Positions 12,764 through 15,741 of a DNA stretch of 46,616 nucleotides are shown here, piece by piece. Both the position numbers and the translations under genes were made by a program. The number at the start of each line of letters is the position of its first letter. Positions within the stretch are counted from its first letter, which is position 1. The notes beneath the pieces are model-generated. The model was not told the origin of the DNA. It did no database searches and saw only the letters and a program-made list of their open reading frames with translations. Source of the stretch: Caldifarciminota bacterium. GTDB lineage: Bacteria; Hydrothermota; Tepidihabitantia; SM23-42. The DNA is taken from contig CP070686.1 in NCBI GenBank assembly GCA_020353055.1, positions 48,188-94,803 of the forward strand, in the 5' to 3' direction.

Positions 12764-13558
12764 TTATCCCGAACGTTTCAGTTTACCTTTCTTCTTTGCG
12801 TAGTACTCTGCTCGGCTGAACACTAACATACCCACTGGTATGAGTAGTACTCCGGCCACCAGAAGCAGCAGGATCACCGGCATCAACTCGCCGAATCCGG
12901 CGCCGTCCAACAATGCGGCGCGCATTGACCGGAGCGTGTAGGTGGCCGGCGAGAGATAGCTCAGAGGGCGAATCCAGACCGGCAATACTTCGATCTCATA
13001 ATAAACACCGGAGATCAGGAGCAAGCCGGCTTCCATGATATGGGTAGCATAAGCGCCTTTTTCAGTCGAAAGCAAAGGCAGAACCGCGGCAATTAGCCCC
13101 AAACCGACGAACGACAATCCGGAAACGACGAGGATGACAAGCAAGGCAGGGAGGTTTGCACCGCTGAGAGATATGCCAAAGAACAAAACGACAATGACCA
13201 GTATCAGGCTGCTCCTTATGACACCGTAAACAACTGCCCACATACAATTACCGATCAAGTGTACGAACCTGCTGACCGGTGCCATGAATGTGTATTCGAT
13301 AGTCCCTTCCCATCGTTCCCAGGCGATCGATTCTGATATTTCGTGAAACAGGATGGAAAGAAATCCCCAGACCATGGCGCCAACCACCAAGTACATGACC
13401 ATCTCTTTTCCCATGGTTGCTCCAATCAGCCCGATCGCAAGGGCATTCACCACATTATAGGACAAGAATACGGCTTCCCAGCCAATATAACGCTTTACCA
13501 GTGCAAAGTTGCGTTCTACGAAGGCAATTGAACCGTAAGTATGAGTTCTAACATTCAT
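12764..13558 (-). CDS. ABC-2 type transporter permease
   Basis: A 264-aa inner-membrane subunit with six predicted helices. A cytoplasmic N-terminus precedes the first helix (VFLSYNVVNALAIGLIGA), and the conserved region EGTIEYTFMAPVSR matches the ABC-2 family. It overlaps the ATPase gene by 11 nt and forms the exporter with it. Substrate is unknown; drugs, polysaccharides or other amphiphiles are typical of the class. The basic C-terminus (YYAKKKGKLKRSG) is cytoplasmic. Confidence 0.9.
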   Translation of the reverse strand: MNVRTHTYGSIAFVERNFALVKRYIGWEAVFLSYNVVNALAIGLIGATMGKEMVMYLVVGAMVWGFLSILFHEISESIAWERWEGTIEYTFMAPVSRFVHLIGNCMWAVVYGVIRSSLILVIVVLFFGISLSGANLPALLVILVVSGLSFVGLGLIAAVLPLLSTEKGAYATHIMEAGLLLISGVYYEIEVLPVWIRPLSYLSPATYTLRSMRAALLDGAGFGELMPVILLLLVAGVLLIPVGMLVFSRAEYYAKKKGKLKRSG

Positions 13559-14321
13559 CCTCTATCTCCTTCCATTCACGGCCAGTAACATCAAGGAATA
13601 CATCTTCCAGAGCTGACTTGGCATATTCCGCCCTAAGTTGAGATGGACTGCCCAGGGTAACGAAACGACCGTCGATGATAATAGCAACACGATCACAGAG
13701 CACCTCGGCTTCCTTCATATCATGGGTGGTCAAGATAATTGTTAAATCATTGCTGCTATTGTTCATCGACTCCCGAACATAGTTTTGCACATCCATTTTG
13801 GACCGTGGGTCGAGGCCGGTAGTCGGCTCGTCCAGAAGCAACAGCATCGGTGCCGTAAAGAATGCACGTGCGATCGCCACTTTCTGTTGCATGCCCCGCG
13901 AAAGGTCTTCAAGCGGTTCGTAGACACGTTTCTCGGCAAATCCCAGCCTGCCGAGAATATCCAGAGAGCGCTCTTTCGCATCCTTCTTACCTAATCCGTA
14001 TAGTCGTGCCGCATAGCGCAGATTCTCCCATGCGGAGATGCCCTTGAAGAAAGCCGCATCTACGCTGACTCTGTTGATCAGACGGCGCACTGAACCATAC
14101 TCCCGTACCACGTCATAGCCAAACACGCGAGCGGTTCCCGCATCCGGGATGAGCAGGGTCGACAGTATGCGGATCAGCGTACTCTTGCCGGAACCGTTTG
14201 GTCCAACAATGCCGAATATTTCCTTCCTGCTGACCGTGAAACTTATTCGGTTGACCGCCGAGATCTTACGGCCGTTCTTACCAAAGGTCTTAACCAACCC
14301 CTCACATTTTACAGCCTCCAT
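13548..14321 (-). CDS. ABC transporter ATP-binding protein
   Basis: A 257-aa nucleotide-binding subunit. Walker A is GPNGSGKST (40-48), the signature LSRGMQQK (140-147), Walker B LLLDEPT (161-167), and the H-loop TTHDMKEAE. The arrangement matches ABC-2 exporter ATPases of the CcmA/NodI type. The ATG follows GGAAGGAGGT. It is first in the two-gene operon and lies about 100 nt downstream of the terminator of the structured RNA on the same strand. The 100-nt gap has no convincing promoter, so expression may depend on read-through from the RNA. Confidence 0.93.
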   Translation of the reverse strand: MEAVKCEGLVKTFGKNGRKISAVNRISFTVSRKEIFGIVGPNGSGKSTLIRILSTLLIPDAGTARVFGYDVVREYGSVRRLINRVSVDAAFFKGISAWENLRYAARLYGLGKKDAKERSLDILGRLGFAEKRVYEPLEDLSRGMQQKVAIARAFFTAPMLLLLDEPTTGLDPRSKMDVQNYVRESMNNSSNDLTIILTTHDMKEAEVLCDRVAIIIDGRFVTLGSPSQLRAEYAKSALEDVFLDVTGREWKEIEDEC

Positions 14322-14423
14322 ATACCTCCTTCCGCCTTGCGGATGATAACAGCGATGCCGGCTAGATTACAGAGATATTTGTCATCACCGTAATTTTGTT
14401 TTTAATCTCCGGTATCATTCTGT

Positions 14424-14457
14424 AAAAAAAAACGCCGTGGGGGAAGCCCACGGCGTT
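14424..14457 (-). terminator. Rho-independent terminator of the structured RNA
   Basis: An 11-bp perfect stem (AACGCCGTGGG, 14431-14441, with 14447-14457), a 5-nt loop and nine consecutive U on the minus strand. Confidence 0.9.
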
Positions 14458-14570
14458 CGCAAAAAAAATCGATAACTCAGGTGGACTCCACCTCCTGATT
14501 AATAGGAGTGCCGAGAGGCTGATTGCCAAAAGCCGTCTCGCTCCTGTTATCTGCTTTCCAGTTTATCATG
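14424..14570 (-). ncRNA. Unclassified structured RNA, about 147 nt, upstream of the ABC-2 operon
   Basis: A perfect promoter and a strong terminator bound this RNA, and no ORF fits it. It folds by eye into a compact three-way junction. P1 is GATAAC/GTTATC (14546-14551 with 14471-14476). P2 is a long hairpin with AGGAG/CTCCT, CGAGA/TCTCG and GGCT/AGCC (14504-14545). P3 pairs TCAGG with CCTGA plus TGG/CCA, with a 3-nt bulge (14477-14498). P1 is followed by eight U, then the terminator. It does not match 4.5S, 6S, tmRNA, RNase P or any riboswitch I recognise. It could be a free sRNA or an attenuator/riboswitch of the downstream ABC exporter. Confidence 0.75.
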
Positions 14571-14576
14571 ATCTAT

Positions 14577-14604
14577 ATTATAACAATAAAATGCTAATTG
14601 TCAA
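14577..14604 (-). promoter_or_regulatory. Consensus promoter of the structured RNA
   Basis: Minus strand: TTGACA (14604-14599), 16-bp spacer, TATAAT (14582-14577). Both boxes are perfect, as in the 16S promoter, which implies strong expression. The start is expected near 14570. Confidence 0.9.
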
Positions 14605-14767: not shown

Positions 14768-14846
14768 AAACGAAAACAGCGAAAGTAGCGCTACTAACGA
14801 TAATAACGGAAGTAACGGTATTCGCGAAAATAACGAAATTAACGTG
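14768..14846. repeat. AACG-type intergenic repeat block
   Basis: About ten copies of an AACG/AGCG-centred unit at 6-9 nt spacing (CGAAAGTAGCGCTACTAACG, ATAATAACGGAAGTAACGG). This lies in a gap of about 340 bp between the structured RNA promoter and the lipoprotein gene. Apart from this block and the promoter at 14860 I see nothing in the gap. Confidence 0.7.
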
Positions 14847-14859
14847 CCAAAGAATATAC

Positions 14860-14887
14860 TTGACAAAATCGAATTGATGTATAAAAT
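14860..14887 (+). promoter_or_regulatory. Promoter of the lipoprotein gene
   Basis: TTGACA (14860-14865), 16-bp spacer, TAAAAT (14882-14887). The predicted start near 14894 leaves a leader of about 20 nt with AAAGGAGG. Confidence 0.78.
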
Positions 14888-14913: not shown

Positions 14914-15741
14914 ATGAAGCGAAAATTGTTTGTTGCCGCGGTTCTGGTTATGGCAGTTGCTATCAGCCAATGCTCCAAGGAAACCGACGAAGACGCGATT
15001 AGAAACCTGATCGAAGCAGACACCATTTGGTTCAATCCTAACAGCGAGGTCGACTCAACAACCAGCGACGACCGGGATACAGTAGCCATCTGGTGGCGCG
15101 GGGTACAAACTCACGATGAACCGATAATCGACATCCAGATAACAGGAGATTCAGCGTGGGTTTCATTCAGCAGGGGTAACTTTGGACACTTCTACTCTCT
15201 GGCAAAGATCGACACCATGCCCTGGGTGCTTTGGGATAAGAACCTATCTGAAACTGCTCAACTACGTGCGATTTTCATGCGCACGGGTGAAGAATCCGAC
15301 GAAAACCGAGGTTGGGAACTCGACAAAATTTCTCTGGCCTTTGGACAATCCAATACTGTGAATACGGTTTCGATCGACAGTCTGCGAATAACCACGCAAA
15401 CCGAGGCCGTAGACATGCTGATAGTCGACCCGCTTAATACCTACTTTGACCTTGAAAGCCTCGTGACTTTCCAAGCTGGTGAACAGGTCACGCTAACCCT
15501 CTACACAAACGTAGCGGATGGACACGCATTCCTCCATACTTTCATACTCGCATGGCCCTTCTATATACGTCTGCCTTTCACCAATATGGGAGATGGCGTA
15601 TTTCAAGGTACATGGCATGCTCAGCTCGTGGCAATTCCACGCTTTGCGATCTTCGATTTAATGCCACATTCGACGATCTATACTCAGGAAGGTCCGTATG
15701 ATTTCAACGGTTGGTTACTGCCATATATGATCAGTGAGTAG
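14914..15741 (+). CDS. Lipoprotein of unknown function
   Basis: A 275-aa protein with a classical lipoprotein signal: MKRK, a hydrophobic core, and lipobox AISQC with the modified Cys at about residue 20. It is expected to be membrane-anchored in the cell envelope. The mature part is acidic and shows beta-rich, Asp/Thr-rich sequence (SEVDSTTSDDRDTVAIWWRG) without a family I recognise. A central SFSRGNFGHFYSLAK stretch and FQAGEQVTLTLYTNVADGHA may be two small beta domains. AAAGGAGG sets the start. The gene is monocistronic and ends at a bidirectional terminator shared with ffh. Confidence 0.8.
   Translation: MKRKLFVAAVLVMAVAISQCSKETDEDAIRNLIEADTIWFNPNSEVDSTTSDDRDTVAIWWRGVQTHDEPIIDIQITGDSAWVSFSRGNFGHFYSLAKIDTMPWVLWDKNLSETAQLRAIFMRTGEESDENRGWELDKISLAFGQSNTVNTVSIDSLRITTQTEAVDMLIVDPLNTYFDLESLVTFQAGEQVTLTLYTNVADGHAFLHTFILAWPFYIRLPFTNMGDGVFQGTWHAQLVAIPRFAIFDLMPHSTIYTQEGPYDFNGWLLPYMISE

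Follow-up and report, generated by a model that had tools for sequence, protein, structure and literature searches.

The locus and its conserved elements

The window analysed here, a stretch of DNA of 46,616 nt, carries on its minus strand an ABC exporter operon preceded by a short transcription unit with the following features:

14577..14604, minus strand: sigma-70 promoter; -35 TTGACA (14604-14599), 16 nt, -10 TATAAT (14582-14577); 12/12 match
14477..14569, minus strand: leader-peptide ORF of 30 codons, apparently leaderless, MINWKADNRSETAFGNQPLGTPINQEVEST; ATG 7 nt past the -10, TGA at 14479-14477
14479..14493, minus strand: hairpin 1:2, AGGUGG-AGU-CCACCU, including the first base of the stop codon; predicted at -8.3 kcal/mol
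14481..14488, minus strand: region 2 (with loop), GAGUCCAC; common to hairpin 1:2 and the predicted antiterminator
14444..14451, minus strand: region 3, GUGGGCUU; shared by the terminator (as 5' arm) and the predicted antiterminator 2:3 (as 3' arm)
14424..14458, minus strand: intrinsic terminator 3:4 with U9; 99.4% of cells paired, about -19 kcal/mol
13548..14321, minus strand: ABC ATPase, DrrA-like (PF00005); first gene past the terminator
12764..13558, minus strand: ABC-2 permease (PF01061); overlaps the ATPase gene

An earlier note on this DNA, made from its letters alone, had described a TTGACA-16-TATAAT promoter and a 147-nt transcript closed by a terminator with nine U, and both descriptions hold. 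From promoter to terminator the predicted minus-strand RNA measures about 147 nt, its terminator having a stem of 11 to 12 bp (12 with the A-U end pairs; 14458-14430) followed by T9, with the end at 14424. The predicted fold of the RNA reaches -54 kcal/mol, as against -38.7 for shuffled sequences (z = -4.0). Going by promoter geometry only, transcription would start at, or within about 2 nt of, the leader ATG. The terminator sequence occurs once each in G000, G003, G021 and G025 and twice in G010, always inside the element; since it is found solely there in the genomes checked, it is no generic repeat. Judged by sequence comparison, the promoter, transcript and terminator on the minus strand are real and conserved. 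The internal U8 run reported by the same note is indeed present in the window, but is absent from G001 and G005 and hence not conserved.

Also in agreement with that note, the RNA belongs to no known family: Rfam searches (6S, SRP, riboswitches, T-box and others) gave no family at gathering score for the window RNA. Permissive matches were set aside as weak or terminator-based, the best being ncS54 with 24.8 bits, mainly from the terminator.

The operon downstream is the ABC-2 exporter operon which the note had placed directly after the RNA and described as lacking an obvious promoter of its own, and no promoter-like site was found in the window between the terminator and the ATPase start. Among the models found for the exporter, NCBIfam drrA and drrB are the best, though both remain below their curated cut-offs (235.7 of 312 bits for drrA and 45 of 223 bits for drrB). 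A PDB search with the permease profile returned only weak matches, to ABCG-type transporters.

Several further features surround the unit. A motif ATTAC(A/G)GnGAT(A/G) at 14346-14394 recurs in the gap between terminator and ATPase at L019, L021, L023 and L029, and is found in both orientations in intergenic DNA of the group, with 14 matches in the window (up to 1 mismatch) against 5.8 expected. On the other side, a divergent gene (14914-15741) encodes a predicted lipoprotein-like product of 275 aa, for which no Pfam match was found; it has its own 11/12 promoter at 14860-14887, just upstream of which lies a degenerate tandem array with a 27-bp period (14769-14844; AACGAAAATAACGAAAGTAACGCTACT). 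Homologues of this gene are found near the attenuator in several relatives.

Phyletic distribution and linkage to the exporter

A covariance model of the 3' core, together with the homologous loci in relatives, yielded 18 copies in 15 genomes, all of them within two families of one order of the candidate division WOR-3 / Ca. Stahlbacteria. The named hosts in this order are represented by metagenome-assembled genomes, and the copies share common descent. Applied to the rest of the class, the 3'-core model yielded nothing convincing: matches in G037, G045 and G049 (E = 0.002-0.005) were rejected as they lack the terminator core looked for.

The linkage of this RNA to the exporter is strict. Wherever a genome of the order has an intact permease orthologue (14 genomes, identity of 77% or more), the RNA lies directly upstream of the ATPase, which answers in the affirmative the earlier note's question of whether the RNA keeps its ABC-2 neighbour, and in genomes of the order without the exporter operon it is absent at that place. 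The RNA and the ABC genes stay together while the genes upstream of them change (G007, G002, G010 and G025), and as little as about 53 nt separates the beginning of the terminator from the start codon of the ATPase in G003 and G007. At one further locus (L081 in G008), the permease match is confined to residues 140-264, i.e. the C-terminal part, and the leader is absent, as if operon and attenuator decay together.

The four copies that do not precede the exporter (one each in G010 and G009 and two in G012, which has three leader copies in total) lie before genes for helix-turn-helix (HTH) proteins of the LuxR/GerE type with 74-80 aa. These copies sit at L028, L029 (the same copy as L043), L044 and L047; the HTH match of one of the four genes is above the Pfam cut-off and those of the other three are weak. 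The exporter and the small HTH regulators under one leader possibly constitute a regulon.

A leader ORF with fixed boundaries and a free sequence

The earlier note had recognised no ORF in the transcript; in fact, 30 codons run open from the predicted transcription start into its third hairpin, inside which the stop codon lies, and the terminator of the window lies 23 nt past this stop. The boundaries of the ORF are held constant across the copies: the -35 hexamer TTGACA is exact in 18/18, the ATG follows 29-30 nt downstream of the hexamer in every one of them, and the stop is placed 21-28 nt ahead of the terminator in all 18. All 14 exporter-linked copies use TGA as this stop, and the four HTH-linked ones use TAG. 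The first ATG shares its frame with the fixed stop in 12 of the 18 copies; in the other six the first ORF has just 12-14 codons, and a second ORF, which is preceded by an AGGAG-like Shine-Dalgarno (SD) site and whose start overlaps or closely trails the end of the first, runs to the same fixed stop. The leader shifts from one leaderless ORF to two overlapping ones, while the stop codon and the antiterminator remain fixed. As most of the larger genes in the window have SD sites ahead of them, the apparently leaderless start looks special to the leader transcript.

When compared with shuffled leaders, 11/11 representatives (one per genus or paralogue) have an open route into the fixed stop, the product of the null probabilities being 1e-12, a figure that takes no account of their shared ancestry. 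The stretch from the ATG to hairpin 1:2 varies in length and sequence, yet stays an open reading frame. The differences within the genus are spread near-equally over codon positions 1, 2 and 3 (220/181/208), so that the peptide sequence is not conserved and selection of the leader peptide as a protein is ruled out. Since codon-position differences show no peptide selection, it is the frame, start and stop that point to translation: their retention beside a variable peptide implies that the leader must be translatable, while its wording hardly matters. Across the 18 leaders, the stretch at which stalling would free region 2 has no conserved residue or codon (examples are INQE, FYQG, LIRE, KGQG and SAEM), and no run of codons for one sensed amino acid, of the trp/his/ilv type, is conserved among them.

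Three mutually exclusive helices

Pairing between the regions was counted in a gap-free anchored alignment of the 18 copies. Hairpin 1:2 joins region 1 (AGGUG) with region 2 (CACCU) in 91% of cells in the 18 homologues, and an alternative register, UCAGG/CCUGA, forms too. Two alternative partners are available to the 3' half of this hairpin, AGUCCAC: the hairpin's 5' half and the terminator's 5' arm, GUGGGCU. Helix 2:3, formed with the latter, is paired in 95.8% of cells, as opposed to 23-52% when slid by 1-3 columns, and four of its eight pairs have changes on both sides. Its main measures were reached by 1-3 of 500 shuffles, a control which overstates independence because leaders of one order share descent. 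The compensatory changes comprise A-U to G-C at pair 22/34 (G020 and the G012abc and G012hth2 copies), G-C to A-U at 18/38 (G021) and A-U to U-A at 17/39 (G009hth); in G020, the change in regions 2 and 3 keeps the antiterminator at the cost of one terminator pair.

Mean predicted energies over the copies are -7.2, -7.5 and -19.8 kcal/mol for 1:2, 2:3 and 3:4, respectively. With region 1 masked, helix 2:3 dominates in 18/18 copies, at probabilities from 0.71 to 1.00; it is weak in two HTH-linked copies, G010hth (-1.8 kcal/mol) and G009hth (-4.5 kcal/mol). In the half-finished transcript at equilibrium, 2:3 is favoured in most members even with region 1 free, and a default-off state would therefore depend on kinetics or ribosomes. 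By their pairing and covariation, the helices 1:2, 2:3 and 3:4 are a mutually exclusive set of the trp type.

This architecture departs from the three-way junction of helices P1, P2 and P3 which the earlier note had drawn. Its P3, the hairpin at the ORF stop, is conserved; P1 and P2 (73% and 71% of cells paired) do no better than shuffled controls, and the individual folds of G007, G001 and G005 differ from a junction. Covariation, which the note had asked for in P1-P3, is likewise absent from P1 and P2; it is found in hairpin 1:2 and helices 2:3 and 3:4, and helix 2:3 was missing from the note's list.

Related exporters outside the order

The permease used as a query recovered 492 related loci from WOR-3 / Ca. 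Stahlbacteria, Zixibacteria, TA06, Poribacteria, Bacillota and others. A strong terminator is present within 300 nt upstream of the ATPase in 21 of 61 exporter loci outside the order, versus 8 of 284 control genes. Family f4, also of WOR-3, has an exporter leader of another kind, with an SD-led uORF (MIKDWTKNLWGPMLVIGFTLSLTEGCL and relatives) and a TAG stop; a 9- to 10-bp pairing between the stop region and the terminator arm was detected in four of five such leaders, and L125 has a perfect 10-bp version of it. For the Zixibacteria leaders, L075, L094, L139 and L161, significance of the 2:3 pairing was not shown, and the claim that related exporters in other phyla are likewise preceded by uORF-plus-terminator leaders, of different appearance, accordingly draws on terminator enrichment and uORFs.

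Rfam models run on 15 loci of related exporters matched none of the leaders at gathering score; the one match in these loci was an Acido-Lenti-1 RNA (RF01687) at L125 (1032-1077). Three Bacillota leaders of the related exporter, at L134, L139 and L140 and some 350 nt before the ABC ATPase, have an SD region (e.g. GGGGGGUCGU) ahead of a uORF that is complementary to a stretch near the uORF end (ACGACCCC), and the uORF is followed by tandem terminators, mostly with a GCCGUGGG-like core.

A mechanistic interpretation and its alternatives

The features by which an attenuator is recognised are present together here: a covarying antiterminator and a terminator that exclude each other, a short ORF with fixed start and stop just ahead of an intrinsic terminator (18/18), and a gene to be regulated downstream on the same strand, i.e. 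the ABC operon in 14 copies and an HTH gene in four. The element is thus, with good confidence, to be read as a ribosome-mediated transcription attenuator forming the leader of the ABC exporter operon. An attenuator for export was one of the options in the earlier note, and it is strongly supported by the invariable linkage to the ABC operon (14/14) combined with the covarying antiterminator. This reading builds on what the compared sequences contain, namely the ORF, its fixed start and stop, the three exclusive helices, the compensatory changes and the exporter linkage; from these we infer the transcription start, the order of folding, the nature of the signal and drug export.

Transcription would begin at or just before the leader ATG. 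A ribosome that reaches the stop codon would cover region 2, leaving regions 3 and 4 to pair as the terminator, such that transcription ends at about 14424. Were no ribosome loaded, hairpin 1:2 would form first and hold region 2, again permitting the terminator. If, in contrast, a ribosome were slowed or stalled within the ORF, on region 1 but off region 2, the latter could pair with region 3; this antiterminator would preclude the terminator and the polymerase would proceed into the exporter genes. The input is most likely impaired translation, for instance by a ribosome-targeting compound or through a general slowdown, with the exporter as the response.

Because no amino acid is conserved at the stalling stretch, a general slowing of translation, e.g. 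by an antibiotic, is the likeliest signal. The same fact makes it rather unlikely that the attenuator senses one charged tRNA or amino acid in the style of trp and ilv, with that amino acid, or a product of it, as the substrate of the exporter. The anatomy is identical to that of trp/ilv leaders, most peptides in the genus of the window have a Trp near their start, and WG recurs in the f4 leaders; yet the stretch exposing region 2 is without any conserved amino acid or codon, and the f4 peptides likewise differ at that stretch.

Quite improbable is control by a riboswitch or a protein, with the ORF being incidental. The RNA folds well, and riboswitch function, the other option that the earlier note had offered, has been considered possible for several ABC leaders without a known sensor (PMC2965389). 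However, a conserved aptamer is lacking, neither P1 nor P2 is conserved, and the stretch between the ATG and hairpin 1:2, though free to vary, stays open; start, frame and stop are all kept, the stop holding its position whether it is TGA or TAG. That the unit is a free-standing small RNA, the abundant sRNA of the earlier note, or a small-protein mRNA merely lying upstream of the exporter, is the least credible reading, with hardly any probability: so strong a promoter and terminator would yield an abundant RNA of about 147 nt, and attenuated transcripts can act in trans, as with rnTrpL of S. meliloti (PMC7298713), but this would leave unexplained the strict linkage to exporter or HTH genes while other neighbours change, the fixed stop codon and the 2:3 helix with its compensatory changes, and the peptide sequence is unconstrained.

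Relationship to known systems and implications

As a putative translation-responsive attenuator, the element has several partial counterparts. BmrCD is a heterodimeric ABC exporter, of a type other than the ABC-2 (DrrAB-like) one. In Bacillus subtilis, ribosome-targeting drugs lead to read-through of the bmrB leader of bmrCD, which encodes a 53-aa BmrB and has its terminator within that ORF (PMC4191407). Both systems share a leader ORF before an ABC exporter, translated in bmrB and presumably so in WOR-3, and a set of terminator, antiterminator and anti-antiterminator; here, though, the ORF has 30 codons, is apparently leaderless and ends upstream of the terminator, the exporter is of the ABC-2 (DrrAB-like) type and the host belongs to WOR-3, and the locus is hence not a member of the bmrB type. 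The four HTH-linked copies are comparable to the whiB7/wblC leaders of actinomycetes, in which a uORF controls an intrinsic terminator before a transcription-factor gene (reviewed in PMC11550727), except that the regulator is of the LuxR/GerE type instead of WhiB and the same leader also serves an exporter.

The arrangement of regions 1:2, 2:3 and 3:4 is that of trp-type attenuators, and a leader ORF at the 5' end of the RNA recalls the leaderless trpL of Sinorhizobium meliloti (PMC7298713). Unlike the trp type, however, there is no regulatory codon run, the stop codon lies in region 2 and the operon is non-biosynthetic. The “ABC-leaders” of Naville and Gautheret (2010) from Firmicutes and Gammaproteobacteria, which had no identified sensor except for one T-box, similarly combine a premature terminator and an antiterminator ahead of ABC transporter genes (PMC2965389); in the WOR-3 hosts, by contrast, the uORF is the likely sensor. 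Precedents exist both for attenuation ahead of ABC transporter genes (PMC2965389, PMC4191407) and for a leader peptide with a leaderless start (PMC7298713). In the papers covered by our literature search, we found no leader-peptide attenuator described for WOR-3 / Stahlbacteria, nor did the search list any regulatory-RNA paper with the name of this phylum. The present case looks like a known kind of switch in a new form, from an uncultured bacterial group, and can be read almost completely from sequence.

A broader evolutionary scenario, which we offer tentatively and hold to be possible, is that leader-peptide attenuators have long been associated with this ABC-2 exporter family across phyla (WOR-3, TA06, Zixibacteria, Bacillota and Chloroflexota). 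Leader sequence, structure and start mode (leaderless, SD-led or two overlapping ORFs) would have been replaced repeatedly while the logic of making the exporter when the ribosome is slow was kept, and the WOR-3 leader would have been copied to LuxR-type regulators, giving a translation-stress regulon. The finding is relevant to whether the attenuators of ABC transporters are ancestral or repeatedly recruited, as Naville and Gautheret had asked (PMC2965389). A further prediction is that slow ribosomes induce this widespread and uncharacterised family of exporters, which would suggest for it a role in self-protection or drug export.
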